A stretch of DNA of 42,299 nucleotides from a virus: positions 1 through 42,299 of IMG/VR virus record IMGVR_UViG_3300031772_000079; one strand, given 5' to 3'. The notes beneath the pieces were generated by a model, which saw only the letters and a list, made by a program, of their open reading frames with translations, made no database searches and had not been told where the DNA came from. A program made the position numbers and the translations under genes. This document shows, piece by piece, positions 4,451-21,592 of this stretch (its first letter is position 1; each line of letters starts with the position of its first letter).

Positions 4451-5062
4451 ATGAATGAAAAGATAGTCAGAATAAGGCCAAAAGTAGTTTTAGTAAATGA
4501 GACTAATTCTAATGTTGTAAAGATAGGAATTGTTAAGGATGAGCCAGTAGCAGATATTAAGGGGAAGTTGATTACTGCTGTAAAAAAGTTACCAAGCGTA
4601 AAAAAGGATAATAAAAAAGTAGTTCAAAAACCAAAAGTGGTACAAAAAGTTTTTGAAGAGATCATCATTGATAAAGATAAAATAGAGGAAAAGAAAAGTG
4701 GTAGTCATAAATCTTCTTGTGGTTTGCTTGTTCAGTTATTACTACAAAGCAAATTTACAGATAGTGAAATTATCAAAAAAGTGCTTGAAGAGTATCCAGA
4801 TAGAACAGAAAAGCAGATACAAATTTGTCTATGCAGCAAACGGTGTGATATAAATAAAGGGGAAGAAAGATATAAGAAACTCCATGAACAAGCAGGAAAA
4901 ATTCTATTTCCTCTAATCAGGAATGAAAACGGAGAATTGGTCAATAAAGAAAAAACAGTAGGTACTCCTAAAAAAGTAAAAAAGATTAAACCAAAATTAG
5001 AATTACTATTAAATGATGATACTGATGATGATATTGATGAAAATTATGTGAATAAGGATTAA
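4451..5062 (+). CDS. Lysine-rich protein with a small helical (winged-helix-like) domain
   Basis: The 203-residue product has basic N- and C-terminal stretches with many Lys-Lys pairs, flanking a central domain at about residues 92-140 (CGLLVQLLL, then SEIIKKVLEEYP). The C-terminus is acidic (DDDTDDDIDE-like). The central domain resembles the C-terminal half of the protein at 5190, so the two look paralogous. The N-terminus contains KIVRIRPK, loosely like the basic end-motif of other proteins here. A role in DNA binding or replication is inferred from charge and position. GGAGG precedes the ATG, and a terminator-like hairpin follows. Confidence 0.65.
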   Translation: MNEKIVRIRPKVVLVNETNSNVVKIGIVKDEPVADIKGKLITAVKKLPSVKKDNKKVVQKPKVVQKVFEEIIIDKDKIEEKKSGSHKSSCGLLVQLLLQSKFTDSEIIKKVLEEYPDRTEKQIQICLCSKRCDINKGEERYKKLHEQAGKILFPLIRNENGELVNKEKTVGTPKKVKKIKPKLELLLNDDTDDDIDENYVNKD

Positions 5063-5189: not shown

Positions 5190-5441
5190 ATGAAAATTGT
5201 GAGCAGTAAACCAATTGTTGTGAGGAGTAGATCAGAGAAAAAAGTTGATAAATTGGTAATTGATAAAGTGCTGGATAAGCCAGTTACTAATACAGGTCGT
5301 GTTAGTTCTATTGGATTGGTAATAAATTTACTAAATGGAGATGAAAAACTAACAAAACAACAAATAGTAGCTAAAGTAAAAAGTACGTTTAAAAATTTAG
5401 AAACTGTTGAGATTGAAAAGCTTATAAAGGAATATGAATAA
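5190..5441 (+). CDS. Small protein related to the gene at 4451
   Basis: The 83-residue product starts at ATG 5190, eight bases after GGAGG. An in-frame TTG at 5178 overlaps the ribosome site and is less likely. It begins MKIVSSKPIVVRSRSEKK, a basic stretch. The C-terminal half (about residues 40-83: SIGLVINLL, then TKQQIVAKVKSTF) follows the same pattern as the central domain of the protein at 4451. A small winged-helix-type fold is plausible. Function is unknown; proximity to the helicase suggests DNA work. Confidence 0.65.
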   Translation: MKIVSSKPIVVRSRSEKKVDKLVIDKVLDKPVTNTGRVSSIGLVINLLNGDEKLTKQQIVAKVKSTFKNLETVEIEKLIKEYE

Positions 5442-7753: not shown

Positions 7754-8317
7754 ATGTATATTCGGAAAAGAAAAGTAAATAAACTTCCTTTTGAGTTGAC
7801 AAATACAATATTGAATTGTCATAGATGCAAACTATCTCAATTTAGAAATCATGTTGTTATAGGAACAGGTAAAATCCCAGCAAAAATTTTATTTTTGGGT
7901 GAAGCTCCAGGTAAATCTGAGAATGTAAGTGGTATTCCTTTTTTTGGATTATCAGGAAATTTGTTGAGAGAAATAATTACAGATGCATGCAAATTAGGAA
8001 ATATTGATAAAATGCCAGATTATTATATCACTAATACTGTACTTTGTAGACCGTGTGATTTTTCAGGCGGTCAAAATAGAGCACCAAATAATAATGAGGT
8101 GTTGATGTGTGCCCCATTAGTACTTGAAATTATCAGACATATAAAACCTGAATTAGTTGTTTTTGTAGGTGATATAGCATATAATTATTACAAAAAAGAA
8201 TTTAATAATCATGTAAAGATTTTTCATCCTGCTTTCTTACTACGTAAAGGGGGTAAGGGATGTATACATTATGGAGCAACAATAAAAATTTTATCGGATG
8301 CATTGAAAGGAGTATAA
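7754..8317 (+). CDS. Uracil-DNA-glycosylase-like protein (4Fe-4S, family 4/5 type)
   Basis: The 187-residue product has the UDG superfamily pattern: CHRCKLS near residue 23, LGEAPGKSE (motif A) near residue 51, PFFGLSG, TNTVLCRPC near residue 95, a Cys near residue 118, and a late HPAFLL (motif B) near residue 155. The four spaced cysteines suit an iron-sulphur cluster. Family members remove uracil or act in phage DNA replication. The N-terminus MYIRKRK precedes the domain and matches the start of the next protein. The gene begins five bases after the RuvC-like gene. Confidence 0.8.
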   Translation: MYIRKRKVNKLPFELTNTILNCHRCKLSQFRNHVVIGTGKIPAKILFLGEAPGKSENVSGIPFFGLSGNLLREIITDACKLGNIDKMPDYYITNTVLCRPCDFSGGQNRAPNNNEVLMCAPLVLEIIRHIKPELVVFVGDIAYNYYKKEFNNHVKIFHPAFLLRKGGKGCIHYGATIKILSDALKGV

Positions 8318-9334
8318 ATGTTCATTAGAAAAAGAAAACAAGCTTTCCCAGTGGTAAAGCATGAGAAAATTCATCTTAAAAGTAAGTTAGATGATCTAAT
8401 AAATGGTGCATATAGATTAGAAAAGGAGGGGATTAGTCAATCTCTATTATCTAATTGGACATGTAGAGTAAAATTTTTACTATCCTGTCAAGGATTATTA
8501 CCTGTAGATAGTGGTAAAGGGACACATTATGGTTCTATTTGCCATGATGTTTTGGAAAAGATTTATAAAGATAAAAAAATGTTGACTAAAAAAGAAATTG
8601 ATAAAATAATAGATTTATTCATTCTCAAAAATCAGAAAAAATTATCTTGGAATGATAGGGAAATTGAACAACTTGCGGCAATATCTCGAACAGTAATGCT
8701 TCAATACTGTAAAGTGTATGAATCTGATTTAAAGTTAATGAATATTGTAGAGACTGAAAAAATATTTGGTCAATATATCGATAGATTATCCGCGAATGCA
8801 TTAATTAAAGGTAAGAGAGATTTATTATTCTCATATGTAAAAGATGCAGATACTCTCTATTATATGGAGCATAAGACAATGGGATCTGTAAACGAAAAGG
8901 TATTGAAAGCTCGTTTACCAATTGATAAACAGAATTTATTTTATCTTATGTCATTACTGGGAGAAGGGAGAAGAGTCAATAATGTTATTTACAATATCAT
9001 AAGAAAACCACAAATAAAAAGAACAGAGTGGGAGTCTATTGTTGATTTTTGCAAAAGATTGGATAGTGATATTAATGATAGGCCAGAGTTTTATTTTTTG
9101 AGGTATCCAGTATACTATTCTTCCAGTGATATTGAGGATTATCGCAGACAATTAATTTTAAAATTTAGAGAAATTGATATGTTTACAAAAGGAAAATTAT
9201 CAATATACAGGAATGAATCATCTTGTGAAAGTGCCTATAATGGGACTCCTTTTACCTGTGAGTATATTGACGTATGTCAATCAAATGATGTTAGTTCATT
9301 AGTAAAGAATGATTTATTTTCTGAATTAAAATAA
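8318..9334 (+). CDS. Cas4/RecB-like PD-(D/E)XK nuclease with Fe-S cysteines
   Basis: The 338-residue product carries the PD-(D/E)XK nuclease core: HYGSICHDVLEKIY near residue 70, IKGKRDLL near residue 165 (the Asp), and YYMEHKT near residue 184 (the E-x-K). A Cys near residue 48 plus three C-terminal Cys (in ESSCES, FTCEY and DVCQS, about residues 303-321) match the Fe-S layout of Cas4/AddB nucleases. It starts directly after the previous stop and begins MFIRKRK, like its neighbour. Probable role: DNA end processing in recombination-dependent replication. There is no CRISPR array nearby. Confidence 0.8.
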   Translation: MFIRKRKQAFPVVKHEKIHLKSKLDDLINGAYRLEKEGISQSLLSNWTCRVKFLLSCQGLLPVDSGKGTHYGSICHDVLEKIYKDKKMLTKKEIDKIIDLFILKNQKKLSWNDREIEQLAAISRTVMLQYCKVYESDLKLMNIVETEKIFGQYIDRLSANALIKGKRDLLFSYVKDADTLYYMEHKTMGSVNEKVLKARLPIDKQNLFYLMSLLGEGRRVNNVIYNIIRKPQIKRTEWESIVDFCKRLDSDINDRPEFYFLRYPVYYSSSDIEDYRRQLILKFREIDMFTKGKLSIYRNESSCESAYNGTPFTCEYIDVCQSNDVSSLVKNDLFSELK

Positions 9335-9343
9335 AAGTTTTTC

Positions 9344-9372
9344 TTGACTTAAATGTCGATTTAATGTATTTT
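9344..9372 (+). promoter_or_regulatory. Sigma70-type promoter before the ATPase/SSB/polymerase genes
   Basis: TTGACT (9344-9349) and TATTTT (9367-9372) are separated by 17 bases. The spacer holds AATGTCGATTTAATG, similar to AATGTCGAAAT in the 154-bp repeats. It lies in the only sizeable gap before the gene at 9408. Confidence 0.55.
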
Positions 9373-9407
9373 TTTAAAAGATTAATAAAGTTATATTAGG
9401 AGGAAAA

Positions 9408-10301
9408 ATGATACAAAGATTAAGATTACCAGCAAATAACTCTGTTGTTAAAAAACTAAGTGCTAAGAAAAATACTGAAATATCAATAGATTTTGATTTT
9501 GACTTACCAGAGGAAAAAAATGATGTAAATGTAGAGTTTGAGAATTGTACATCATTGATTTATGGGGAACAAAAAATTGGAAAGACAAGTTTAGTATCTC
9601 AATTTTGTAAAGGAGACGTACTCTTTCTTTCTTTTGAACGGGGTACACTTTCACAAAATGTTTACGCGACTAAATTGATTATCCACTGGAAACAAGTATT
9701 AAGTATCATTGACAAATTAGAAAAGAAAAAAATAGAGTCTGGGAAATTAAGGTATAAATTATGCTGCCTTGATACTGGTCATTCGGCATATGATAGAGCA
9801 TTAGAGTATTACTGTGAGAAAGAAGATATTTTACATCCTGGGAAAATGAAGGATTTCGGTGCTTCTTGGAAAGGTGTACTTCAAGAGTTTACTAATTTAC
9901 ATGAGAGATTGACTACGTTGGATATGGGATTAGTGATAATTTCTCATGATAGAATAAGAGATAGAGAGACAAGAGATGGAAATGCATTTTCAAGATGGGA
10001 GCCATGCTTTTCGGAATCAATTGAGCTTTACTATAAAGCAGTTTGTGATATAGTAGGATTTTATCATATTGTAAACGAAACGAGATATTTACTAATACAA
10101 CCAGAGGATGGAATAGTTGCAGGACATAGGGTAGATGGAAAATTTTTAACAACAGAAGGTAAGCCAGTTTATAGAATACCAATGGGGAACAGTAAGGAGG
10201 AAGCGTATAAAAATTTAATTAATGCTTTTGATAATAAACAAATTAAACAAAATAAAAAATCAGAATTAATAAGTAGTATAGTTAAGAAAAAAGTTAGTTA
10301 A
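9408..10301 (+). CDS. P-loop ATPase, AAA_24/Sak4-like
   Basis: The 297-residue product is a RecA-fold phage ATPase. Walker A is YGEQKIGKTS near residue 51, LFLSFERG follows, Walker B is KLCCLDTG near residue 118, and VIISHDR near residue 180 fits a sensor motif. Sak4-type proteins of this layout promote single-strand annealing or recombination together with the phage SSB, whose gene follows directly. The N-terminus begins MIQRLRLP, a basic tail. AGGAGG precedes the ATG, and a promoter-like site lies upstream. The precise subfamily is inferred from length and neighbours. Confidence 0.75.
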   Translation: MIQRLRLPANNSVVKKLSAKKNTEISIDFDFDLPEEKNDVNVEFENCTSLIYGEQKIGKTSLVSQFCKGDVLFLSFERGTLSQNVYATKLIIHWKQVLSIIDKLEKKKIESGKLRYKLCCLDTGHSAYDRALEYYCEKEDILHPGKMKDFGASWKGVLQEFTNLHERLTTLDMGLVIISHDRIRDRETRDGNAFSRWEPCFSESIELYYKAVCDIVGFYHIVNETRYLLIQPEDGIVAGHRVDGKFLTTEGKPVYRIPMGNSKEEAYKNLINAFDNKQIKQNKKSELISSIVKKKVS

Positions 10302-10355
10302 TTTACAATTTCAATTTACAATCTTAATTTACAATTTACAATTTACAATTTAATG
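10302..10355 (+). repeat. AATTTAC tandem repeats in the SSB leader
   Basis: Five or six imperfect copies of AATTTAC run through the gap between the ATPase and SSB genes, just before the ribosome site at about 10357. The run could be slippage-generated. It could also serve as an unstructured leader or a site for autoregulation by the single-strand-binding protein, which is speculative. Confidence 0.7.
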
Positions 10356-10368
10356 TAGAGGAGATTTT

Positions 10369-11292
10369 ATGTCAATTAAAGAAAGATTGGCTCAAATGCA
10401 AAAGGGTTTTATTCAATCCAAGGCACAATATGATCAAAAATTCGGAGGTATAAAAATTGATGAAGGGGAATATGTGGGAAAATTATCACGTTGTTCCCTT
10501 GACATAAGAAAGAGTGATGATAGTGTTGTTGTGTCTGTAGAGTATACTATCATGGAAGGTAAATTCAAAGGGTTTACAACTTTCGATCAAATGAATTTAG
10601 ATAATGAATGGGGAAGGCTTTTTGCAATTCGTTTTGTTGAATTATCAGGATTTGAATTTCCGGAAGATGTGACTTTACTTGATGCAACCATACAAGAAAT
10701 AGCAAAACAAGCTGGAACATATGAGATTACCGCAAAGAAAAACGGAGATTATATAAATATTTCTCCTAAACAAATGCTTAAAGAAGTTGTTGAAGAAGTT
10801 GTCAAAGAGGAAGTTAAAAAGAAAGCTGTAACTCCTCAAAGTAATTCTATTGTTCGAGATAGGCCAACTAAGCAGAAAGAAGTTGTTGAAGAAAGAGAAG
10901 AAAATGATGATAGTACAGAGATAACGATTGAATCTATCAATGCAATGGATAGAAAAGAATTGAAACAATTGATAACAGAGAAAGACATTGAGTTAAGAGT
11001 GACAACAAAACATTCTGATGATGATATTCGTAAAGCCCTTATTACTCATTTAGGTTTAAAAATGGATTTACCAGAAGAGGATGAGAGTGTGGAGGTTCCA
11101 ACTGATGATGAACTAAAGATGGATTTACTTGTGTTTTGTAAATCACATAAAATCAAGAGTATAAATAAAGATATGGATCTTGACACAATGTTGACTACTC
11201 TTGAAAATCATAAATTTGATAGGGAATCCCTGGAAGAAGATGAGATAAAATTATTGACAATGTTGGCAATTGATGGATGTATCGAAGGTTAA
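10369..11292 (+). CDS. Single-strand DNA-binding-like protein (DUF669 type) with C-terminal HeH/SAP-like domain
   Basis: The 307-residue product has an N-terminal block (about residues 30-130: GEYVGKLSR, SVEYTIMEGKFKGFTTFDQMNL) resembling the DUF669 phage single-strand-binding family. A charged linker with many Glu/Lys pairs follows. At about residues 190-232 lies a small helical domain (INAMDRKELKQLITEKD, then DIRKALITHLGL) like HeH/SAP DNA-binding modules. The C-terminus is acidic, as in SSBs that recruit partners. It is adjacent to the Sak4-like ATPase and the polymerase. AGAGGAG precedes the ATG. Confidence 0.7.
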   Translation: MSIKERLAQMQKGFIQSKAQYDQKFGGIKIDEGEYVGKLSRCSLDIRKSDDSVVVSVEYTIMEGKFKGFTTFDQMNLDNEWGRLFAIRFVELSGFEFPEDVTLLDATIQEIAKQAGTYEITAKKNGDYINISPKQMLKEVVEEVVKEEVKKKAVTPQSNSIVRDRPTKQKEVVEEREENDDSTEITIESINAMDRKELKQLITEKDIELRVTTKHSDDDIRKALITHLGLKMDLPEEDESVEVPTDDELKMDLLVFCKSHKIKSINKDMDLDTMLTTLENHKFDRESLEEDEIKLLTMLAIDGCIEG

Positions 11293-11328
11293 ATTTCCTA
11301 TCATTAATTACCCTTTTTATTGTTGTTG

Positions 11329-11362
11329 ATGTGGTAAGGGAATTTTCCTTACCACATTTTGT
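11329..11362 (+). terminator. Hairpin terminator between SSB-like gene and polymerase
   Basis: ATGTGGTAAGG (11329-11339) pairs perfectly with CCTTACCACAT (11347-11357), followed by TTTTGT. It is preceded by CTTTTTATTGTTGTTG, closely like the element before the hairpin at 5087. It could partially reduce read-through into the polymerase gene. Confidence 0.75.
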
Positions 11363-11375
11363 AAAGGATAGCATT

Positions 11376-13223
11376 ATGGATTGTCAATCAGAATTAAAAT
11401 TAGAACTGAATAGTCAATCAATTGACTATGAGACATGTAATAGTACTGATTATAAATTGGCAGTTAGACCATTCCATAAAAATACAAAAATATTTTCTTA
11501 CTGTATAGGTTATCCTTGTGGAAAAGTAGACGTGCATAGATTAGATTCTAAGAATGCAGAAGAGAATCTTTTTTATTGGGAAAAATTGAAAGATTTTTGG
11601 GCGGATACATCGATACATAAAATTTCCCATAATTCTAAATTTGAGTATACTTTGACACGTCAAGCAGGGATTGACATACCAGATAATACAATACTCCATG
11701 ATACAATGATACAATCTCAAATGTTAAGAAATTTAAATTTACAACATGGTTTAGCTTGGTTATGCTATGAATTAAATGACTCTGAAATTTATGAATATAA
11801 TAGGAAAACTTTTAATAGTAAAGAATTAGATTCATTTGTTGCAAAGGAGGGTAAACGCCTTTGTGGATATAATAAAATTAACAAAGAGTTATTTAATATA
11901 TATCAAGTAGCTGATGGGCAAAGATGTTTTTTACTACATAACATATTCTTTCCAGAGATTTACAATTCAAAAGAATTGTTAATGGATTATTACAATGAAT
12001 TGGAATTGATAAAAGTAACATACCAAATGGAAAAAGAGGGATTGTGTGTTGATATTGAAAAATGTGAAGAATTATTAAATTGGTTAAATAAGGAATTAAT
12101 ACGATTACCGCTTGAAGTACAGGATGAATTGGGGTATTTTGTCAATTTAGGGAGTGATAAGCAAGTTTCACAGATTATTTTTACACAATTAGGTTTACCA
12201 GTGTTAGAATTTACAGAAAAAGGAGTACCGTCAACAGATAAAAATACTATTCTAAAGTTGATAGAATTGTATCCTGATTTAAAAATATTAAAATTAGTTT
12301 TAAAACATAGATCATATACAAAAGGGAAAGCAAATATACAATCATATATTAATTTTTGTGATGATAACGGAATTATACATCCAAATATAAGAACCAATGG
12401 TGCACATAAAACAGGTAGACAATCCTCCGATAATCCAAATTTACAAAATATAGAAAAAGAAACATCGCTTAAGAATCTTTTTCCAGTGCCAGCTCGATAT
12501 TGTTTTATTGTGCATGATAATTGTGTGACAATATCAGTTGACTATGATGCAATAGAATTACGTTTAATTCTTGAAGCAGCACAAAGTACTAAAATGATGG
12601 AAAATTTAAGAAATGGAATAAGCCCACATGTTATATTTTGTAAAGTTATGTTTGGTTCTCGTTTTGTGTCGAAGCAAGATTCCAAAGAATTATATGACTC
12701 TGGGAAAAATGGACATTTTTGTCTATGTTATGGTGGATCTCTAAAAGAATTATCTGATACTTTACAATTGAGTAGAGAGGAAACTATTAACGGAAAGTAT
12801 AATTATAAAAAAGATTATCCCGAAATTGTCAATTTGATAAGTAATGGAATTGATAAGATAAAAAATGTAGGATATATAAAAACTGCTTTTGGTAGGCAAT
12901 TATGGATTGAGCCTGATAAATTGTATAGCTGGTTGAATTATTATATTCAGGGAACAGCAGCGGGTATACTAAAGAGAGCACAAGTTAAAGTACATAAATA
13001 TTTAATTGACAATTGGAATAATAGTGGAATTCAAATAATATTATGTGTGCATGATGAGCTATTGATTAAATATCCAAGAAATATGCTAAAATATAAAGAA
13101 GAGATATTAAAGGAAATTTCTTTACTTATGACAAATATTCCAGAAATTAAATCTCCTTTACAGGTAGCATTTAAGTACACACGTACTTCTTGGGCAGAAA
13201 ATAAACCTTTAAAAATAGGATAA
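11376..13223 (+). CDS. Family A DNA polymerase with proofreading domain
   Basis: The phage replicative polymerase, 615 residues from ATG 11376 (AAAGGA upstream). A longer in-frame opening exists, but it runs back through the terminator hairpin. The exonuclease domain shows IDYET (DxE motif I), HNSKFEY and YQVADG. The polymerase domain shows motif A VDYDAIELR, motif B GKNGHFCLCYGG and motif C CVHDELL. The Phe in motif B matches E. coli Pol I F762. Four residues before the motif B Lys there is Tyr where Pol I and T7 polymerase have a triphosphate-binding Arg. Length fits a small phage PolA-like enzyme without a 5' nuclease domain. Confidence 0.92.
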   Translation: MDCQSELKLELNSQSIDYETCNSTDYKLAVRPFHKNTKIFSYCIGYPCGKVDVHRLDSKNAEENLFYWEKLKDFWADTSIHKISHNSKFEYTLTRQAGIDIPDNTILHDTMIQSQMLRNLNLQHGLAWLCYELNDSEIYEYNRKTFNSKELDSFVAKEGKRLCGYNKINKELFNIYQVADGQRCFLLHNIFFPEIYNSKELLMDYYNELELIKVTYQMEKEGLCVDIEKCEELLNWLNKELIRLPLEVQDELGYFVNLGSDKQVSQIIFTQLGLPVLEFTEKGVPSTDKNTILKLIELYPDLKILKLVLKHRSYTKGKANIQSYINFCDDNGIIHPNIRTNGAHKTGRQSSDNPNLQNIEKETSLKNLFPVPARYCFIVHDNCVTISVDYDAIELRLILEAAQSTKMMENLRNGISPHVIFCKVMFGSRFVSKQDSKELYDSGKNGHFCLCYGGSLKELSDTLQLSREETINGKYNYKKDYPEIVNLISNGIDKIKNVGYIKTAFGRQLWIEPDKLYSWLNYYIQGTAAGILKRAQVKVHKYLIDNWNNSGIQIILCVHDELLIKYPRNMLKYKEEILKEISLLMTNIPEIKSPLQVAFKYTRTSWAENKPLKIG

Positions 13224-13229
13224 AAAGAT

Positions 13230-13385
13230 ATGAAAACTAAAAGAGGAGTTAAATGTTTAAGTAGAAGCGAATTGACAAAAAAGATTTGTCAAAAAGCTAA
13301 TTTACCAAAAGGTAAAAAAACAAATGAATACTTTACTAAGGATCAATTGATTCATTTATTGATAATTTTAGAAGCAAATTCTTGA
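13230..13385 (+). CDS. Hypothetical 51-residue basic protein
   Basis: An open frame from ATG 13230 to TGA 13383 fills the gap between polymerase and primase-helicase. The product is basic (KTKRGVKCLSRSELTKKIC), then KTNEYFTKDQLIHLLIILEA. The helix-turn-helix-like layout resembles the small HeH/SAP-type domain seen in the SSB-like protein. The ribosome site is weak (AAAAAGA), so confidence rests on position and composition. Confidence 0.5.
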   Translation: MKTKRGVKCLSRSELTKKICQKANLPKGKKTNEYFTKDQLIHLLIILEANS

Positions 13386-13426
13386 TAATTTCATAACATT
13401 GACTATTTAGGAATAGAAGAATTAAC

Positions 13427-15481
13427 ATGGATATAAAGAATAATCTAAAAACATTTTATCAACACGGATTTGTGGAAATTGAAGAAACTGGTAACCAAAT
13501 ACGGGGTTATTGTCCTTTTTGTAATGGAGATAAATTTTTTGTAAACTATGAGATTAAAGGTTGGGATTGCAAACACTGTGGCAGGAATGGTGGGTATCAA
13601 AGATTTTTACAACAAATAGCAGAGTATTGTAAGGAGCAATTCACAGGTGAAATTATTAAAACTCTTCACAAAAACAGGAGTATTTCGAGTAGAATTTTAA
13701 AATCTTTTGATATTGGTTATAACCCAAAGACACAAAAATATACAATACCAATGTACAATAGAGATAAAAGTAAGATAATGAACATCTATATTTTTACACC
13801 AAATTCAAAAAAATTTAAAATGATTGGTACATATGGAGGGGAACAAGAGCTAATTGGGGTTGACAAATTTGACCAAAAATCCAAAATTATTTGGTTGACA
13901 GAAGGACATTGGGATTATTTAGTAATGACTGAAATACTCGAAAATTTAGAGAAAGAGAATGAAACTGTCTTGGCAGTGCCAGGGGTAACCCAGTTAAAAG
14001 ATAGTTGGATTTCATATTTTAAAGGAAAATATGTTTTTGTCTTATTTGACAATGATCATGACCAAGTAAAAGGCGGTAAGATAATAAATCCTTCCAGAGA
14101 TGGGCAAATAAAAGTTTATAACAAATTAAAGACAATAGCAAGTGAATTAAAATTCATTCACTGGAAAGAAAATTTAAAAGATGGATATGATATTCGTGAC
14201 CTTTATAAAGATAACTCTCTAAATTATGATGAAACATATACACATATAGTAAGTAATTTAAAGGATTACCCGAAAGGGTTACAAGTGCCGGAAGTTAATA
14301 TAAAGGAAAAATCAGATATTTACACAGGGAAAAGTATTCCTTGTGAACAAGTTTATGGAAAATATCAAAAATGGTTAAAGTTAAAAAACACAGAAATAAT
14401 CGATGTATTTTATGGAAGTTTGATAGCAAATAGATTACAAGGAGATCCTATTTGGTTACTCCTTGTTGGTCAATCTGGATGTGGAAAGACTGAGATCATT
14501 ATGTCAATCAAAGATGTGAGTGATATTTATAGTATTGATACATTGACAAAAAATACTCTTGTTTCTGGAGCACATGGGATTGGCGGGAGTGATCCCTCGT
14601 TAATTCCCCAACTTGACAAAAAGATACTTGCTATAAAGGATTTTACAACCATACTTGATATGCATCCTAATGATAGGGATGAAATATTTGCTCAATTACG
14701 TTCTGCTTATGATGGAGAATTTAATAAACCTTTTGGTGTGGGGATTCTACGCTCTTATGTGTCAAAATTTGGAATTATTGGTGGTGTAACAAGAGCTATT
14801 GAGTTATATACAGAAGGGAATACAGCATTAGGAGAAAGATTTTTGAGATACCATTTCCCTGTTAGCAATACACAAAAGGGAAGATTTGAAGTTATGCACA
14901 AAGCTTTACAAAATATAACCTCTAATCAAAAAGATACTATGCATAAAGAATTAAGGGAAATTGGTGCTTTGGTACTTAACTTTAACTATGAGAATGTTCC
15001 CTTGATGGATGAAAACTTTACAAATAAGTTGGTTGCACTATCAGACTGGACTTCAATGCTAAGAGGTGCAGTAATACGAGATAAATATACGAAAGAGATC
15101 ACACATAAGGCATTTATTGAGCTTGGAACAAGATTAGTTACTCAATTAGGCAAGTTATCTTTCGGGATAGGTATGTTTAAAGGAATCGATAAATTGGATA
15201 TGGATGTTTATGATTCTGTGAAAGAAGTTGCGCGAAGTTCCATACCAACAAAAAATGAAGAGTTAGTGAGAAGATTATATTTTTTAAAAGGTAAAAAAGA
15301 GTTATCTGTGAATGAATTATCTGAGATTATCGGATTACCAACAATAACTGTACAGAGAATTGCGGAGAATCTATGCATATTAGGCGCGCTATCTAAAACA
15401 AGAATTGTTGGAACTATGGTGAGTAAATATAGTTTAAGTGAAGAAATAAAAAGTTTAATTGATAAAACAGAAGTATATTGA
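13427..15481 (+). CDS. Primase-helicase (zinc finger, TOPRIM, P-loop ATPase)
   Basis: This 684-residue product probably primes and unwinds DNA at the fork. An N-terminal zinc finger (CPFC near residue 28, CKHC near residue 45) is followed by a TOPRIM domain: WLTEGHWDYLV near residue 160 and VFVLFDNDHD near residue 205. An ATPase domain has Walker A LVGQSGCGKTE near residue 347 and a Walker B-like KKILAIKDFTT near residue 400. The last about 70 residues (LSVNELSEIIGLPTITVQRIAE) look like a winged helix. No separate DnaB-type helicase is visible in the window, so this may be the replicative one. The ribosome site is weak. Confidence 0.85.
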   Translation: MDIKNNLKTFYQHGFVEIEETGNQIRGYCPFCNGDKFFVNYEIKGWDCKHCGRNGGYQRFLQQIAEYCKEQFTGEIIKTLHKNRSISSRILKSFDIGYNPKTQKYTIPMYNRDKSKIMNIYIFTPNSKKFKMIGTYGGEQELIGVDKFDQKSKIIWLTEGHWDYLVMTEILENLEKENETVLAVPGVTQLKDSWISYFKGKYVFVLFDNDHDQVKGGKIINPSRDGQIKVYNKLKTIASELKFIHWKENLKDGYDIRDLYKDNSLNYDETYTHIVSNLKDYPKGLQVPEVNIKEKSDIYTGKSIPCEQVYGKYQKWLKLKNTEIIDVFYGSLIANRLQGDPIWLLLVGQSGCGKTEIIMSIKDVSDIYSIDTLTKNTLVSGAHGIGGSDPSLIPQLDKKILAIKDFTTILDMHPNDRDEIFAQLRSAYDGEFNKPFGVGILRSYVSKFGIIGGVTRAIELYTEGNTALGERFLRYHFPVSNTQKGRFEVMHKALQNITSNQKDTMHKELREIGALVLNFNYENVPLMDENFTNKLVALSDWTSMLRGAVIRDKYTKEITHKAFIELGTRLVTQLGKLSFGIGMFKGIDKLDMDVYDSVKEVARSSIPTKNEELVRRLYFLKGKKELSVNELSEIIGLPTITVQRIAENLCILGALSKTRIVGTMVSKYSLSEEIKSLIDKTEVY

Positions 15482-15507
15482 TTTTTAAAATTTTAGGAGG
15501 TTTGAAT

Positions 15508-16194
15508 ATGCGTAAATTTATTAGAGAACGTAAACAGGAAACTAAGGAGAATCTAAATGTATCAATTGAACCAATAGATTCTGTCAATTTGTGGAAAGAG
15601 AATCCAAGAAAAAATAGTCAATCCCCATCAAATTTAGGAAAATTATTAATGTTATATGGTCAAGTTTCCCCTGTTGTGGTGTGGATTAAAAACAAAGTAA
15701 TTTATAAAGGGAATACGACTTGGAAATCGCTTGACTGGTGGAGGAAACTTGATGATAATGAATACAAAATGATACTTGATGATTTAAAACTCCCTTCAAC
15801 TTTACAAAAGCCAACAACTATAAAAGTTTTATGGCAGGATTTTAAAAATGAGGAGGATGCAGTATCTTATGGGATAGCAGATAATAAATCAAGTGAATGG
15901 ACGTTCTGGGATGAAAAAAGACTTGAGAGTTTACTTGCTCAATATTATCTGGATTTAGAAAAGTTGACAATACGAAAGGATACTACACCAACAGGATTTA
16001 CAATGAGTGAATTAAATAATTTAATATTAATACCAAATTTAGATAACCTCAAAAAGAAAGAAGGAACGAAAGAATCTGAAATTATAAAAATAAAATGTCC
16101 TCCAGAGATCAAAGATGATTTAAAGGAATGGTTAATGGAGAATTTAGATGATCATTGTCCTTTTATCGGTTTACATACGATAGAAATAGTATAA
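15508..16194 (+). CDS. ParB-like nuclease-domain protein
   Basis: The 228-residue product starts at ATG 15508, behind AGGAGG at 15495-15500. It has a ParB/Srx-type domain: NPRKN near residue 32, VIYKGNTTWKSL near residue 65, and EDAVSYGIADNKSSEWTFWD near residue 125. Stand-alone ParB-like domains of this kind are common in phages, often with DNA methylases, and may bind DNA or hydrolyse NTPs. The N-terminus MRKFIRERK carries the basic end-motif shared with four other proteins. It precedes the QueD/QueE/GCH-like group. Confidence 0.75.
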   Translation: MRKFIRERKQETKENLNVSIEPIDSVNLWKENPRKNSQSPSNLGKLLMLYGQVSPVVVWIKNKVIYKGNTTWKSLDWWRKLDDNEYKMILDDLKLPSTLQKPTTIKVLWQDFKNEEDAVSYGIADNKSSEWTFWDEKRLESLLAQYYLDLEKLTIRKDTTPTGFTMSELNNLILIPNLDNLKKKEGTKESEIIKIKCPPEIKDDLKEWLMENLDDHCPFIGLHTIEIV

Positions 16195-16208
16195 AGGAGT
16201 GGGTAGGT

Positions 16209-16382
16209 ATGTCAAAAATTAATTTGTGCGATCATTGTATTAGGTGGGCAGAGTTTCCACTTTGTATAGATAGATATGTTGAGTTTGGAGATGGGGTAGG
16301 TAATGACAATATTATAAAATGTAATAGGTATATACGAATTGATGAAAGTGTAGGAGGAACAAATGATAATATTAACGAGTAA
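16209..16382 (+). CDS. Small cysteine-rich protein
   Basis: The 57-residue product starts at ATG 16209, after AAAGGAG at 16194-16200. It contains CDHC at residues 7-10, then a Cys near residue 18 and another near residue 38, so a small zinc site is possible. It overlaps the QueD-like gene by 20 bases. No family is recognised. Position suggests a link to the modification genes. Confidence 0.55.
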   Translation: MSKINLCDHCIRWAEFPLCIDRYVEFGDGVGNDNIIKCNRYIRIDESVGGTNDNINE

Positions 16383-16851
16383 ATTTACGTTTGAATCGGC
16401 ACATAGATTATTTCTTTATAATGGGGATTCTGCAAATATTCATGGCCATTCATACAAAGTAGAAATTTCAATTGATGCAGAAGTTTGTGAAGAATCTAAT
16501 GTTCAAACAAATTTATTTAATGAACAGAAGGAAATAAACTATCCAGGTATCACAATTGATTTTACTTATTTAAAGTGTGTAATAGGTAATTATATAAAAA
16601 ATAAATATGATCATTCTCTTTTATTAAATAATGAAGATTCCCTAAAAGAAGTTATTGGAGAATATACAGATAAGATAGTATATTTTGACTCTAATCCAAC
16701 AGAGGAAATAATATCAATAAAATTATTTAAAGAAATAAGTGGTATTCTTTTACAAAAAGGAATTAATGGTACTTTACAAAGTGTATCTTTATGGAGTACA
16801 GAGGATAATTGTGCCATTGCAATAATTGATTCAATAATAGAGGAAATTTAA
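16363..16851 (+). CDS. queD-like: QueD-like (6-pyruvoyl-tetrahydropterin synthase family) protein with altered active site
   Basis: The 162-residue product has the QueD/PTPS fold: FESAHRL (zinc His14) and NIHGHSYKV (His27, His29), TIDFTYLK, and DH at residues 83-84. QueD normally turns dihydroneopterin triphosphate into 6-carboxytetrahydropterin in 7-deazaguanine synthesis. Two key residues differ. Ser23 stands where QueD has its catalytic Cys, four before the HGH motif. Ser145 in WST stands where the substrate-binding Glu normally sits. The zinc ligands and the Asp-His pair are kept. The fold is clear, but the reaction is uncertain. AGGAGG precedes the ATG. Confidence 0.8.
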   Translation: MIILTSKFTFESAHRLFLYNGDSANIHGHSYKVEISIDAEVCEESNVQTNLFNEQKEINYPGITIDFTYLKCVIGNYIKNKYDHSLLLNNEDSLKEVIGEYTDKIVYFDSNPTEEIISIKLFKEISGILLQKGINGTLQSVSLWSTEDNCAIAIIDSIIEEI

Positions 16852-16886
16852 CTTTCTATAAAAAATTAACTTTTTGGAGTATTGAC

Positions 16887-17651
16887 ATGATAGTAATTAA
16901 TGATATTTTTTATTCGATTCAAGGTGAAGGTTACTACATCGGCACACCGGCAATTTTTGTACGTACCCAGGGGTGTAATTTACGATGTGGATTTTGTGAT
17001 ACAAAAGAAGCACAAGAAAGAGAGATAAAAAATTCTTTGTCTCAATGGTATACCTCTGATTTAGCGAGAAAATTGGTGGGTATGATAATTGAGCATAAAT
17101 GTAATTATATTGTATTTACAGGAGGGGAACCATTATTATTAAGGGAAAATTTAGGGGATTTGATTTATCTTATTGACGAAGAGATAAAAAGTCAAATTGG
17201 AATTTACAAAGCGAACCAATTACATTACGGAATAGAAACTAATGGTTCGCTGGATTTGGCAGAATGTGCAATAAAACCTTATCACTGGAAACAAATATCC
17301 ATTTGTCTATCCCCAAAAGTCAATAAAGGAAATCCAAGTTATATAGATTCCTCATTTTATGCCCATTGTATTTACGAAAAAAATAATTTTAAAAGAGTAT
17401 CGCTCAAATTATTGTATCCTTTTTATTTACTCTATGGTAAAGAGTACACGGCTTTACATTTTGATGATCATTATGTGCAACCACTTGTCGTAGATGTAGA
17501 ATATAATCTTTTTAGAACTGTCGAGAAAACACATAGTGAATGGATAGATTACTATTCTCTTGCATGTAAACAACTTATTACTGATTTAAATAAATTCGGT
17601 AGTATGTGGAAATTATCTATACAATTACAAAAATTATTAGGAATAAAGTGA
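16887..17651 (+). CDS. queE: QueE, 7-carboxy-7-deazaguanine synthase (radical SAM)
   Basis: The 254-residue product is a radical SAM enzyme of the QueE type, which converts 6-carboxytetrahydropterin to 7-carboxy-7-deazaguanine. Visible motifs are YSIQGEG near residue 10, the cluster motif CNLRCGFCDT (CX3CX2C, about residues 31-40), TGGEPL near residue 79, ETNGS near residue 118 and SPKVN near residue 145. All iron-sulphur cysteines are present, so unlike its neighbours it looks intact. It starts 35 bases after the QueD-like gene. Confidence 0.88.
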   Translation: MIVINDIFYSIQGEGYYIGTPAIFVRTQGCNLRCGFCDTKEAQEREIKNSLSQWYTSDLARKLVGMIIEHKCNYIVFTGGEPLLLRENLGDLIYLIDEEIKSQIGIYKANQLHYGIETNGSLDLAECAIKPYHWKQISICLSPKVNKGNPSYIDSSFYAHCIYEKNNFKRVSLKLLYPFYLLYGKEYTALHFDDHYVQPLVVDVEYNLFRTVEKTHSEWIDYYSLACKQLITDLNKFGSMWKLSIQLQKLLGIK

Positions 17652-17658
17652 GGTCGGT

Positions 17659-18663
17659 ATGAAAGTATATGTTGTTTCAGAGAATGAGTTTTTGACGTTA
17701 AGTCTTAAATTATATGAAAAAATACTCAATAAATTAAAGGAATGGGAAAGTTTTAATTGTACTCAAGATATTTTACACAAAGTGCAAATCGCTAATGATT
17801 TTCCAGGTAAAACGTGTGCAAAAGTAACTATCCACGGAATACCTAATAGTGGAGTACCGGTAGCATATAATATAGTTAGTTTACTTAATGATAATCCAGA
17901 ATTTAGATTAAAATACTATGCAACAGTTTCATTTAAACCAACTTCTAATTTTATTGTTGATATTATAAGAGACTCTGGAAAGACAAAAGAGCAGTACTCT
18001 AAAATAATACATGATCCTGATTGTTTCTTTGCTCTGATTGATAAAAAAGAAAGTGGTTTAACTGATTATTGGATAAAATTTCCCTGGGAAACTGATATTG
18101 ATAAAATTGAAGCTTTACCGGAGGATATACCTTTACAATTTTTACAGTACATAGGGGAAGATCCAAAACGGGAAGGTTTACTTGGAACACCTTCCAGGGT
18201 TATTGATCTTTGGAATTATCAATACTCTGGGTATAATGTTGATATAGAGGGATTATTTATAAATTCAAGTGAATCAAATATTGATAAAATGATAGTACTT
18301 GATAATTTGGAATATTATAGTACCTGTGAATGTCATTTATTACCAATTTTTGGTAAATGTTATATAGGGTATATTCCAAATAAAAAAATAATAGAAGTAA
18401 GTAAATTAATCCAATTAGTAGACGCCTTCTCCCAGCGTTTACAAATGCAAGAAAATTTGACTCAACAAATTGCAGGAGCGATTATGAAATATTTGGAACC
18501 TATGGGAGTAGGTGTAATTATGACCGGTAATAGTATGTGTATGCGTATGGTTTCACAGGGTATACAAAAACAAGAGCCCACTTTAAAAACTTTTGCTGTA
18601 TTAGGAGCATTCAAAGAATTTGTTGGAGCTCGCAATGAGTTTTTAAATCTTATAGCTTTGTAA
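17659..18663 (+). CDS. folE-like: Phosphoribosyltransferase fused to GTP cyclohydrolase I-like domain, altered catalytic residues
   Basis: This 334-residue product joins two domains. Residues about 55-145 look like a type I phosphoribosyltransferase: HGIPNSGVP (59-67), the PRPP-binding pattern FIVDIIRDSGKT (98-109) and WIKFPWE (138-144). Residues about 160-334 match GTP cyclohydrolase I (FolE): GTPSRV, YSTCECHLLP, YIPNKK, SKLIQLVDAFSQRLQMQE and NSMCMRM. FolE zinc ligands map to Cys223, His226 and Cys294. The catalytic His of CEHH is Cys225, and the second catalytic His (HxC motif) is Ser292. The domain may therefore stop at an intermediate or catalyse another reaction. It follows QueE by seven bases. 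Confidence 0.82.
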   Translation: MKVYVVSENEFLTLSLKLYEKILNKLKEWESFNCTQDILHKVQIANDFPGKTCAKVTIHGIPNSGVPVAYNIVSLLNDNPEFRLKYYATVSFKPTSNFIVDIIRDSGKTKEQYSKIIHDPDCFFALIDKKESGLTDYWIKFPWETDIDKIEALPEDIPLQFLQYIGEDPKREGLLGTPSRVIDLWNYQYSGYNVDIEGLFINSSESNIDKMIVLDNLEYYSTCECHLLPIFGKCYIGYIPNKKIIEVSKLIQLVDAFSQRLQMQENLTQQIAGAIMKYLEPMGVGVIMTGNSMCMRMVSQGIQKQEPTLKTFAVLGAFKEFVGARNEFLNLIAL

Positions 18664-18677
18664 AGGAATATTGATAT

Positions 18678-18923
18678 ATGAAAACTGTTGACGTGTGGAT
18701 AAAATTGGAGGATTGTGTGAGTGAGCATAGTATTAAATTTGGTAAAGCATTGATTCGATTACGTGAAAATAAAGGACTAAGTAAAGAAGAGTTATCCGAA
18801 AAGTCAGGTGTTTCGCTTTGTAGTCTTGACAGATATGAGAAAGGTTTAAATGTTCCCACAGTGCGTACTCTCAATAAATTATTAGAAATAATTGACAAGT
18901 ATCAAAAGGGAGATATAAAATAA
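18678..18923 (+). CDS. XRE-family helix-turn-helix regulator
   Basis: The 81-residue product carries a Cro/CI-type helix-turn-helix: FGKALIRLRENKGLSKEELSEKSG, then LCSLDRYEKGLNVPTVRTLNKLLEI (about residues 21-70, written here in two parts). It probably binds DNA and regulates phage genes; control regions A and B are candidate targets, by inference. The ATG at 18678 follows AAAGGAA; an internal GTG start is possible. Its stop is followed in frame by 24 more open codons (18924-18998), noted separately. Confidence 0.8.
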   Translation: MKTVDVWIKLEDCVSEHSIKFGKALIRLRENKGLSKEELSEKSGVSLCSLDRYEKGLNVPTVRTLNKLLEIIDKYQKGDIK

Positions 18924-18998
18924 GATTCAAAAAATATATCTATAGTGGATGAAAAAGAAGAGGAAATATTAAAAAGATTTGGTTATAAAGTTAATTAA
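18924..18998 (+). other. In-frame open extension after the XRE gene stop
   Basis: Directly after the TAA of the regulator, 24 codons stay open in the same frame to a second TAA at 18996. They encode a charged tail (DSKNISIVDEKEEEILKRFG, then YKVN). This could be a former C-terminus cut off by a new stop, a read-through tail, or chance. Confidence 0.35.
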
Positions 18999-19015
18999 AG
19001 AAAGGATTTTTTATT

Positions 19016-19264
19016 ATGACAAAGAAGAATTTATTCAAGAAAAAGCTTGACAATCGATGGGAAAGTTTTAATAAATCAATCGATAAATTGCAAGAAAATG
19101 CAAAATTTCTTGCAGAAACTCAAGCTTTAGAGTGCAAAACTAAAGCAGAAATTGATGTAATAATTCAAAATTTGAATGATCAAACTGATCTTTTTTCATT
19201 AAAAATTGATGAATTAAATGATGAAATTTTTGAGAGTTTATCAGAAATAAAAAGTGATTTATAA
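19016..19264 (+). CDS. Hypothetical 82-residue helical protein
   Basis: A Lys/Glu-rich protein with long helical stretches: FNKSIDKLQENAKFLAE, then DVIIQNLNDQTDLFSLKIDE. It is probably a coiled coil or helical bundle. AAAGGA precedes the ATG. No family is recognised. It is the last gene before control region B. Confidence 0.6.
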   Translation: MTKKNLFKKKLDNRWESFNKSIDKLQENAKFLAETQALECKTKAEIDVIIQNLNDQTDLFSLKIDELNDEIFESLSEIKSDL

Positions 19265-19318
19265 ATTTTTTATAACTTTTTATACGAAAATAGGGTAAAA
19301 ATAGGTAAAAATGCTAAA

Positions 19319-19460
19319 AAAACGACGTAAAAACGACCGGTACTTACCCCCTACCGTAGGTATATAAATTTATAATGCGCAACCAATATTTTTTTTATTA
19401 TATATTATATTAATTTGGGTATATATGCCAGGGGGTAATAGACGGTCGATTTTCTGGCAA
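19319..19460. promoter_or_regulatory. Control region B: same modules as region A
   Basis: This lies in the 240-base gap 19265-19504. It contains CGACG and ACGACCG (about 19323-19339), TACCCCCTACCGTAGGTA (about 19345-19362) and an AT-rich core CGCAACCAATATTTTTTTTA (19378-19397). GGGGTAATAGACGGTC follows (19432-19447), the reverse complement of a 15-base string in region A. ACGGTCGATTTT (19442-19453) is the reverse complement of AAAATCGACCGT at 1516. It is a candidate origin or operator region preceding the clamp-like gene. Confidence 0.55.
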
Positions 19461-19504
19461 TTTATATTTTTTATATTTTTATACTTTTTATATTTAGGAG
19501 GATT

Positions 19505-19798
19505 ATGTTATTTAAATATTTAATATCGGTAGAGGATATTTCAATTGGTATGCTTTATGATGATAGGAAAAAGGAAATGCGACTTGGGGGGAATAAGCGT
19601 TTTTCGGATTTTATAAATTCAATTGTGGAAACATATGCCGGATTATCGCTTGTTAATGGACATATAGTTATCGATAAATTAAAAGTGAGGTTTAGTATTA
19701 GTTGTACTAAAAAAATATTTGATCGCGCACTTATTGAATTAAGTAAACAAGGTATTTCGGTTGCTATGGTTAAATCTTTTAATAGGTTAATGAGGTAA
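19505..19798 (+). CDS. Hypothetical 97-residue protein
   Basis: A mixed alpha/beta protein starting MLFKYLISVEDISIGMLYDD and ending with a basic helix (SFNRLMR). AGGAGG precedes the ATG at ideal spacing. No family is recognised. It is the first gene after control region B and lies three bases before the clamp-like gene, so the two are probably translated together. Confidence 0.65.
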   Translation: MLFKYLISVEDISIGMLYDDRKKEMRLGGNKRFSDFINSIVETYAGLSLVNGHIVIDKLKVRFSISCTKKIFDRALIELSKQGISVAMVKSFNRLMR

Positions 19799-19801
19799 AT
19801 A

Positions 19802-20737
19802 ATGATAGTTTCAAAAAATGCTTTACAAGTGGTGAACTTGACTGCACCTGATAAACAAGTGCCATTACTTGATACTGTGCATATCAGGGAAGATGGGGGA
19901 GTAGTTGCAGCAAATAGAGATGTAGTGATATTAGTATCACCTGTAAAGGAGGAGGTAAAAGGAGCGTATCCACTAAAGAGTAGGGAAACAGAAGAGGTGA
20001 CAATTTCGTCTGATTCAATACGAGATATTATCAAATATATAGGAGTGGATAAAAGATTTAGGGGGTTATTAGATAATTGTGATATTGTCAAGAAAGGGGA
20101 AAAAGTAGAGGTAATGTGTTATGATGGGCAAAGAACAAAAGTTTTTGAGGGTAAATGTTACCCTGAATATTTTGAGTATATGCAATTGCTGACTCGTGTG
20201 TGTGAAGATAGTAATAATATACGGGTAGTATTAAATGTAAAGAGATTAAAAGCATTGATTGATACTATTGACAAAGTGTGCATGGATAGGGGAGACTTTG
20301 CACCAATATTCTTTGAGTTTACAAATAGTGGTGATATACTCATACGAGCGGTTGATGCAAAAATTGGAACAAGGGTAATGGCAGTTATACGAAGTTTACC
20401 AGGTTCAAAATTTTTGGATTATAGTGCTTGGGAGAAACAATTTATTAAACGTAAACCAGAAGCAAAAACGATACCAGTTAGAAAGAGATTTACGAGAACT
20501 AAAAATTTTAAAGTGGCTAAAGAGGAAATTGAAATGTCAAAACCAATATCAACAATAATAAGTAAGCCCTTCGTGAGAAAGAGAAAAACAATTAAAAAGG
20601 AGGTATATCTGTGGAAAATTATAAATGATACCTGCCCAAAATGTGGAAATCATTTGAGACGAGATAGCTTTTCAGGTGTTATTAAATGTTCCTATATTAA
20701 TTGTAAAGACTTTGTTCCGGATTGTATTCCATTTTGA
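19802..20737 (+). CDS. Sliding-clamp-like protein with basic linker and C-terminal zinc ribbon
   Basis: The 311-residue product begins with about 200 residues resembling a DnaN/processivity-clamp fold (VHIREDGGVVAANRDVVILV, then VVLNVKRLKALIDTIDKV, then FTNSGDILIRAVDAK). A basic region (about 215-265) contains IKRKP, VRKRF and FVRKRK. The last about 40 residues have CPKCG and CSYINC, a zinc ribbon. A bacterial clamp usually has three such domains; here there may be two or fewer, so oligomer state and role are uncertain. An AAAGGAGG inside the gene at 20596-20603 lies before the ribbon but is followed in frame only by CTG. Confidence 0.55.
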   Translation: MIVSKNALQVVNLTAPDKQVPLLDTVHIREDGGVVAANRDVVILVSPVKEEVKGAYPLKSRETEEVTISSDSIRDIIKYIGVDKRFRGLLDNCDIVKKGEKVEVMCYDGQRTKVFEGKCYPEYFEYMQLLTRVCEDSNNIRVVLNVKRLKALIDTIDKVCMDRGDFAPIFFEFTNSGDILIRAVDAKIGTRVMAVIRSLPGSKFLDYSAWEKQFIKRKPEAKTIPVRKRFTRTKNFKVAKEEIEMSKPISTIISKPFVRKRKTIKKEVYLWKIINDTCPKCGNHLRRDSFSGVIKCSYINCKDFVPDCIPF

Positions 20738-20778
20738 ATATAGTTGGGTATTCTTGGGTAGCATAATAAATATATTAA

Positions 20779-20807
20779 TTGCTTTTTCTGGATTTTTGAT
20801 ATATATT
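20779..20807 (+). promoter_or_regulatory. Sigma70-type promoter before methyltransferase/packaging genes
   Basis: TTGCTT (20779-20784) and TATATT (20802-20807) are separated by 17 bases, in the gap 20738-20833. It would drive the methyltransferase and perhaps the late operon. Two TTGGGTA strings lie just upstream (about 20746 and 20756). Confidence 0.5.
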
Positions 20808-20833
20808 ATATAATAAGGGTTTAAAGGGCTTAA

Positions 20834-21592
20834 ATGGTTGAAATGAACAAGGTATATCACGGTGACTGTCTTGATGTGATGAAAGATATTACAAGTAAGA
20901 GTGTTGACATGGTGCTATCGGATTTACCTTACGGAATGACAAGTAAGTGCGAATGGGATACTAAAATTCCTCTTATGTCATTATGGGAACAATACAGAAG
21001 GGTTATACGTGATAATGGAGCGATAGTGTTAACTGCAAGTCAACCATTTACAAGTGAGTTAGTAATGAGTAATTTAGAAATGTTTCGGTATGAATGGATT
21101 TGGAAAAAGACAAGATTTAGTAACCAAATGTTAGCTAAAAAGCAACCATTAAAGATACATGAGAATATTTTAGTATTTGGTAAAAGTGGAATAAAATATA
21201 ATCCACAAAATTTAATTAAGGTTGGCAAGGTTACAAGGCAGGGTAAGAAGCTATCTAAAGTAGTTGCTAATGGTATACGTAAAACAAAGTATTTTCAGGA
21301 ATACAGTAATTACCCTATATCGATACAATTAGTAAAAAATGAGACAGGTTTACATTCCTCACAAAAACCAGTTAAATTGTTTGAATATCTTATAAAAACG
21401 TACACCAATAAAGGGGATGTGGTTTTGGATAATTGTGCCGGTAGTGGGACAACGGGGATAGCTTGCCAGAATACTGAGAGAAAATATATTTTGATTGAGA
21501 AAGAATTAAAGTTTTGTGGATTAATAAAAAGACGATTAATGCTTAATTTGATTCAATTGCAAAAACAGAAATTTATTAGGGAACGAAAATAA
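20834..21592 (+). CDS. DNA methyltransferase, beta-class N6-adenine/N4-cytosine
   Basis: The 252-residue product transfers methyl groups to an exocyclic amino group in DNA. The catalytic motif DLPYG (a DPPY variant) lies near residue 31. The SAM-binding part comes later: HSSQKPVKLFEYLI near residue 172, then VVLDNCAGSGTTG near residue 194. This order defines the beta class. The C-terminus ends KFIRERK, the same basic peptide that starts other proteins here. No restriction partner is seen, so it probably protects or marks phage DNA. An alternative ATG lies at 20843. The terminase genes follow. Confidence 0.88.
   Translation: MVEMNKVYHGDCLDVMKDITSKSVDMVLSDLPYGMTSKCEWDTKIPLMSLWEQYRRVIRDNGAIVLTASQPFTSELVMSNLEMFRYEWIWKKTRFSNQMLAKKQPLKIHENILVFGKSGIKYNPQNLIKVGKVTRQGKKLSKVVANGIRKTKYFQEYSNYPISIQLVKNETGLHSSQKPVKLFEYLIKTYTNKGDVVLDNCAGSGTTGIACQNTERKYILIEKELKFCGLIKRRLMLNLIQLQKQKFIRERK

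Follow-up and report, generated by a model that had tools for sequence, protein, structure and literature searches.

Why would several proteins of unrelated fold, all with roles in DNA metabolism, carry the same short basic peptide at an end or in a linker in one phage? The question is raised by the viral record IMGVR_UViG_3300031772_000079, a 42,299-base sequence with a GC content near 32% and a single long rightward gene set, which we analyzed at its full length and refer to as the window. Here the peptide [FY][IV]R.RK recurs on early proteins, and a sequence-only reading had proposed it as a phage-specific docking tag for a common partner such as a clamp, a single-stranded DNA-binding protein (SSB) or DNA itself. 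We find that the peptide is not a conserved docking tag. What is kept at the same ends across relatives is a basic tail, mostly lysine-based, and we see about an even chance that the peptide is how this phage words a basic-tail system common to the family, the tails acting as non-specific DNA tethers.

A recurrent basic peptide on early proteins of the window

Protein families were assigned via Pfam, PHROGs and NCBIfam. The window holds five strict copies of the peptide, all in frame in real genes on the plus strand and exactly where the sequence-only reading had placed them. Three are N-terminal tails: MYIRKRK (7754..7774) of a family-4-like uracil-DNA glycosylase (UDG; gene 7754-8317; Pfam UDG, E 4.9e-26, with an NCBIfam family-4 UDG match under that model's cut-off), MFIRKRK (8318..8338) of a Cas4-like PD-(D/E)XK nuclease (gene 8318-9334; Pfam PDDEXK_1, E 6.1e-9; phrog_1218 exonuclease) and MRKFIRERK (15508..15534) of a ParB-like protein (gene 15508-16194; phrog_620 ParB-like, E 5.9e-15). 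KFIRERK (21569..21589, the stop reaching to 21592) forms the final seven residues of an N6/N4 DNA methyltransferase (MTase; gene 20834-21592; Pfam N6_N4_Mtase, E 9.5e-30), and FVRKRK (20570..20587) lies between the clamp fold and the Zn ribbon of a clamp-like protein, so that the end or linker positions described earlier hold for all five. Shine-Dalgarno-like sequences (AAGGAA, AAGGAG and AGGAGG) precede the three N-terminal starts, and a six-frame scan with the pattern returned no matches beyond the five in-frame copies.

The enrichment check proposed by the sequence-only reading gave a result far beyond chance with local composition retained: the strict motif occurs in 5/57 window proteins, against 0.02 expected from shuffles of whole proteins or of 8-40-residue blocks, and a count of five proteins was reached in 0/2000 shuffles under each of six schemes. 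The motif had been picked by eye after viewing the data, and we therefore added motif-free tests. Exact 6-mers common to the 12-residue ends of different proteins amounted to one pair versus 0.021 expected (reached in 42/2000 shuffles); sharing of 3-, 4- and 5-mers between ends was not significant (556, 215 and 175 of 2000 shuffles), nor was end sharing in reduced alphabets. A chance origin of the strict motif is thus rejected by the shuffles, although the motif-free tests are weakly significant or non-significant.

A looser core, [FYIVL][IV]R.R, is found in 9/57 proteins versus 1.07 under whole shuffles and 1.04 under block shuffles (maximum 5 in 500 of each), and all nine proteins lie in the early region. 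Additions to the strict set include IVRDR (10849..10863) at residue 161 of an SSB-like protein (gene 10369-11292), in a low-confidence linker, and two looser forms flagged earlier and real members of the core, both in early proteins without assigned names and close to their N-termini: IVRIRPK (4463..4483; gene 4451-5062) and, in a small protein, VVRSR (5217..5231; gene 5190-5441). The clamp-like protein has a second looser copy, PVRKR (20474..20488), in its disordered linker. The core match in a helix-turn-helix protein at 18678 sits within an apparent folded helix and is probably due to chance. The Sak4-like annealing protein (gene 9408-10301; phrog_124 Sak4, E 1.2e-28) has a basic N-terminal tail, VVKKLSAKK (9444..9470), that is worded in lysine and falls outside the strict motif. 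This tail and the looser copies given here with coordinates are likewise on the plus strand.

We also considered a DNA element in place of a peptide. Arginine codons in the five strict copies include CGG, AGA, AGG, CGT and CGA, and the bases that the copies have in common equal the synonymous-codon expectation in 10/10 pairs. Since the codons vary as synonymous choice predicts, the likeness lies at the protein level, and a DNA element is ruled out.

Basic ends recur across related phages

A terminase scan gave 14 relatives, among them G007, which is syntenic with the window over the early region, and alignment scans with the polymerase and primase added further ones. The comparison used 28 loci including the window, representing 23 distinct phages; more distant or short loci were excluded, duplicates (L036, L076, L077, L078 and L084) were removed before counting with the exception of the L078 clamp, counted for L047, and fused ParB-methyltransferase proteins entered both family counts. 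In viral_contigs, scans with single proteins, namely the polymerase and the primase, returned no close relatives with early genes. The nearest terminase relatives, L010 (86%) and L011 (97%), are fragmentary and include none of the tagged genes; in L010 the methyltransferase end was not seen upstream of the first packaging gene.

The strict motif occurred in the DNA-metabolism proteins of 0/22 relatives. The literal tag, proposed earlier as a docking signal, is absent in orthologues, the outcome that the sequence-only reading itself had named as refuting it, and is hence lineage-specific, so any family-wide function must rest on the looser basic end. The looser core exceeds shuffles in two phages only, the window (8/15 proteins, 0/300) and G007 (2 proteins, 6/300).

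We therefore counted basic ends, defined as a 12-residue stretch of net charge at least +4 inside the terminal 20 residues. Across 11 DNA-metabolism families and both ends, 134/383 ends are basic, versus 13/163 ends of structural proteins (Fisher p 5e-12), the latter taken from nine sequences of the family, some from phages beyond the 23. Basic C-ends are found in Sak4 (19/21), clamp (10/13), SSB (13/19) and MTase (4/7) proteins, and basic N-ends in Sak4 (14/22), ParB (10/14) and Cas4 (11/20) proteins; clamp N-ends (0/14) and MTase N-ends (0/6) are not basic. Examples from relatives are the ParB N-ends VKLKLKKKVKK, MKIKKIKTRM, MPIRKRGS and MINKRKRV and the clamp C-ends LKIRKSKKRKKLRLKIK and RPVAKKVAGRRKK. 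The ParB-like protein and the methyltransferase, separate in the window (15508-21592), are fused in L031 and L037. In L031 the fusion bears MIKKVKK at its N-end and ARKIKRMKRTQ at its C-end, and these two basic ends mirror the separate ParB N-tail and MTase C-tail of the window.

Outside this family, Sak4 lacks basic tails in three unrelated phages, Brevibacillus Sundance, Alicyclobacillus KKP_3916 and Enterococcus EF1; in Sundance and KKP_3916 the protein adjoining the tailless Sak4 ends in an acidic DDLPF/DLPF-type tip, which is the usual layout. Eight records with UDG matches in the phage collection were examined. Six are unannotated faecal fragments that look bacterial, and a basic tail of this sort was found in none of these six, nor in a Moorella phage.

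Wording of the tails within and between phages

To compare wording we scored pairs from a core set of 88 tails by their best 6-mer (BLOSUM62). The set excludes relatives' UDG N-ends, which are mostly a folded cysteine-rich region, as well as SNF2, RuvC and certain further ends. Within one phage, tails of different proteins score 15.09, versus 12.38 for different proteins of different phages and 12.90 for orthologous proteins of different phages, and the difference between the first two was reached by 0/2000 label permutations. Residue shuffling inside tails retains 1.30 of the 2.70 excess (0/300 shuffles reach 2.70), so roughly half of the within-phage excess is composition. With the window omitted the scores are 14.92, 12.48 and 12.96, and shuffling retains 1.29 of 2.44 (0/300).

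The clamp-like and SSB-like proteins

Two of the proteins named as possible partners of the peptide deserve closer description. By sequence, the window copy of the clamp-like protein (gene 19802-20737) matches none of the clamp families, and one of 11 family members barely reaches DNA_pol3_beta (E 0.092). The monomer model (predicted local distance difference test score, pLDDT, 72; predicted template-modelling score 0.59) nevertheless shows a clamp fold in the core: residues 1-214 match 9-1-1 by Foldseek at E 4e-5, with weaker matches to PCNA and beta clamps, and comparison (VIA) with the beta clamp in the Gp168 complex (7evp) gives Z 12.1 and an rmsd of 3.1 for 184 residues over 1-211. In the linker, residues 220-273, all but one residue have pLDDT <50. 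Fused behind it is a Zn-ribbon module, CPKC...CSYINC (20633..20734, plus strand). L035, G007, L031 and L043 encode similar ribbons as small separate genes (phmmer E 4e-6 to 4.5e-4, no more than suggestive given a five-sequence database). Each of these stand-alone proteins begins with basic residues, and because of this resemblance the linker FVRKRK probably corresponds to the basic N-terminal tail of such a module, here joined to the clamp. The gene ends in the SSB-tip-like DCIPF (20720-20734); similar C-ends (DTGVPF, ADGLPF) are seen on the L035 ParB-like protein (gene from 14137) and the L037 ParB-MTase fusion (gene from 16072), while the SSB-like proteins have no such tip.

As to a possible OB-fold core for binding single-stranded DNA in the SSB-like protein (10369), Foldseek ranks chains of the plasmid protein PrgE first (E 2.7e-4), among them one solved with DNA, and SSBs follow at E 0.04 and worse. 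Of 17 family members, 4 to 9 match PHROGs SSB families; the window member alone matches weakly (E 0.0024). Residues 140-179 of its model are mostly at pLDDT <50, and its C-end reads LAIDGCIEG. An acidic D..PF tip was not seen: 0/24 listed family SSB matches (duplicates included) end in PF. The SSB-like proteins of most relatives contain a strongly acidic internal stretch, of up to 20 consecutive glutamates. In L025 (G007; 20 Glu in a row) and L041 the polyglutamate inside the protein is followed by a lysine-rich C-end.

Non-specific tether or specific address

If the peptide is a local form of a family-wide basic-tail system, short, disordered, positive end-tails would decorate the proteins of the recombination/replication module, with Sak4-like, Cas4-like, SSB-like, ParB-like, methyltransferase, clamp-like and Zn-ribbon proteins as carriers and the UDG as an additional one in the window phage. 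By contact with the DNA of the phage, or with SSB-covered DNA, such tails would concentrate each enzyme at DNA being copied and recombined and offset weak DNA binding by the enzyme cores. Their wording would be set per phage, as lysine/valine repeats in most relatives and as [FY][IV]R.RK in the window phage. In its favour we count the motif enrichment, the excess of basic ends in DNA-metabolism families, the mirrored ends of the L031 fusion, the tailless Sak4 of the three unrelated phages and the published UNG2 and TopA parallels. Within this account we infer that most tails are disordered (models of disorder cover only the clamp and SSB proteins), that DNA is the partner and that activity would be affected. 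Because the tails sit on DNA-binding proteins that include the SSB and the clamp, DNA or SSB-covered DNA would be the simplest common target. The clamp or the SSB is unlikely to be the sole receptor because both bear tails, with 10/13 and 13/19 basic C-ends in relatives and the core motif in both window proteins, and each would need to bind its own. What stands of the docking-tag proposal is a shared, ordered, phage-specific peptide; the clamp or SSB is unlikely as its sole partner, and of the partners proposed DNA is the one we favour.

Several observations weigh against non-specific tethering. Primase N-ends (2/23) and polymerase C-ends (1/23) are rarely basic and RuvC-like ends are mostly non-basic, and these proteins act on DNA too; basic N-tails occur on some head proteins as well and are thus not confined to the replication module; and the tail list, being automatic, includes some folded ends. 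Both arginine positions are Arg in 5/5 strict copies, a wording more specific than charge needs, in a genome where Arg makes up 31% of Arg+Lys. The window tails also share residue order (z 5.33, 0/300 shuffles), and an ordered, phage-specific wording is unexpected from pure electrostatics. Order likeness is lower in relatives (G007, z 1.9, 11/300; L031, z 1.5, 18/300; others <1.4, several negative). The ordered motif is therefore special to the window, and elsewhere charge and composition are what the tails have in common.

An alternative is a phage-specific docking peptide read by one fast-changing hub, for example an acidic SSB linker, that recruits enzymes to SSB-covered DNA. This we regard as possible, if doubtful. 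It fits the within-phage tail likeness, which exceeds both the between-phage likeness and the composition-only excess with or without the window, and the acidic stretches in the SSB-like proteins of most relatives; in a further parallel, an extract of PMC5928155 describes the last six residues of the HK620 SSB loading Sak4 on SSB-covered single-stranded DNA (ssDNA). It fits less well with tails on the SSB and clamp themselves, with order-specific likeness that is weak in each relative taken singly, and with SSBs that lack a strongly acidic linker (in L035 the most acidic 20-mer has net charge -5). A broader form, which we think rather unlikely, would give each phage a private basic peptide address on most of its replication and recombination proteins, [FY][IV]R.RK in the window; a hub that co-evolves with this address (an SSB linker, the clamp or a DNA-bound scaffold) would read it and gather the enzymes on the replicating DNA of that phage rather than on host or rival-phage DNA.

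That the tails share no function at all appears improbable to us. Disordered ends might drift to K/R-rich sequence in an AT-rich phage with a purine-rich strand, their likeness reflecting drift, copying by recombination or chance. The coding strand of the window is indeed purine-rich, with GC and AT skews both positive, composition alone reproduces about half of the within-phage excess, and the ParB and MTase copies are identical at 16/18 bases. Yet structural proteins of the same family seldom have basic ends, base sharing in the 10 pairs is no higher than synonymous codon choice predicts, the expectation with local composition kept is 0.02, and other relatives again show tails at corresponding ends, worded in lysine or arginine. 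A translation or expression effect, in which AAA/AGA-rich codons after the start boost early genes, is very improbable and mostly refuted, since although 3/5 strict copies follow the start codon directly or within four residues, the other two lie in a linker and a C-end, the SSB-like copy lies in a linker, and in relatives it is the C-ends of Sak4, clamp and SSB that are most often basic.

Should the tails prove to matter, short end-peptides that keep their charge while their sequence turns over between phages would be organizing an entire replication module. They would also offer a simple, testable system for distinguishing a generic DNA tether from a specific address, with natural variants from more than 20 related phages. 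For annotation the case counsels caution: a striking motif shared within a single phage can be one local version of a looser feature found throughout its family.

Neighbouring genes and other observations

Between the ParB-like and clamp-like genes, positions 16363-18663 of the window hold consecutive QueD-, QueE- and FolE-like genes, which point to 7-deazaguanine synthesis and perhaps to DNA modification; the FolE-like protein has an additional N-terminal part of about 160 residues. Basic N-tails on structural proteins are seen in the window minor head protein (gene 25685), its L014 and L017 homologues and the L017 portal, proteins that may touch DNA. The L031 contig (L092 / L031) is binned in the Candidatus Falkowbacteria metagenome-assembled genome QMNH01000001.1, a possible, unproven hint of the host.

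Comparison with known systems

The PCNA-interacting peptide (PIP) box approximates Q..[ILMV]..[FYW][FYW], and the bacterial clamp-binding motif (CBM) Q[LMI][SDN][LMI][FLY]. Matches to these patterns fall only in the late-region genes 27011, 31690 and 39607 of the window, with none in the tagged proteins. The likeness to these motifs and to the AlkB homologue 2 PCNA-interacting motif (APIM) is that of a short peptide common to unrelated DNA-repair proteins, and APIM, defined as [KR][FYW][LIVA][LIVA][KR] in an extract of PMC7261172, likewise sets an aromatic/aliphatic pair beside basic residues. APIM differs in that its fourth position must be aliphatic, whereas all five window copies have Arg there, and its pattern has 0 matches among the 57 window proteins. 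In the portions of the open-licence literature searched, we found no description of an end-peptide common to the replication proteins of one phage.

A second parallel is the acidic tip of SSB (DDDIPF), including the HK620 SSB with Sak4, where a short charged end likewise recruits recombination enzymes to SSB-covered DNA (PMC5928155, in extract). Here the polarity is reversed: the enzymes have the basic ends, and the SSB-like proteins are without a D..PF tip and mostly basic-ended. As judged from sequence, this reversal suggests an altered route of bringing enzymes to SSB-covered DNA.

The closest counterparts of the tails themselves are found on cellular DNA-binding proteins, as described in extracts of the papers cited. 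The disordered basic N-tail of human UNG2 boosts processivity and anchors the enzyme near junctions of single- and double-stranded DNA (PMC9266487), and together with other glycosylase tails it resembles the window UDG in placing a disordered tail on a uracil-DNA glycosylase for DNA contact and fork recruitment (PMC9266487; RPA-guided UNG, PMC10810282). The UNG2 tail is longer, however, and belongs to one enzyme only, and the window UDG, being family-4-like, is of another family. Lysine repeats confer processivity on actinobacterial TopA (PMC7398561), and the tails of this topoisomerase I and of HupB are likewise basic repeats on DNA-binding proteins (PMC7398561, PMC5676037). Several relatives carry lysine-rich terminal repeats in their sequence (L041, L049 and G007), of AKK/PAAKK type in L041 and L049. 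Compared with the TopA and HupB tails, the wording in the window is short, arginine-based and ordered, and it decorates a whole module of unrelated proteins.

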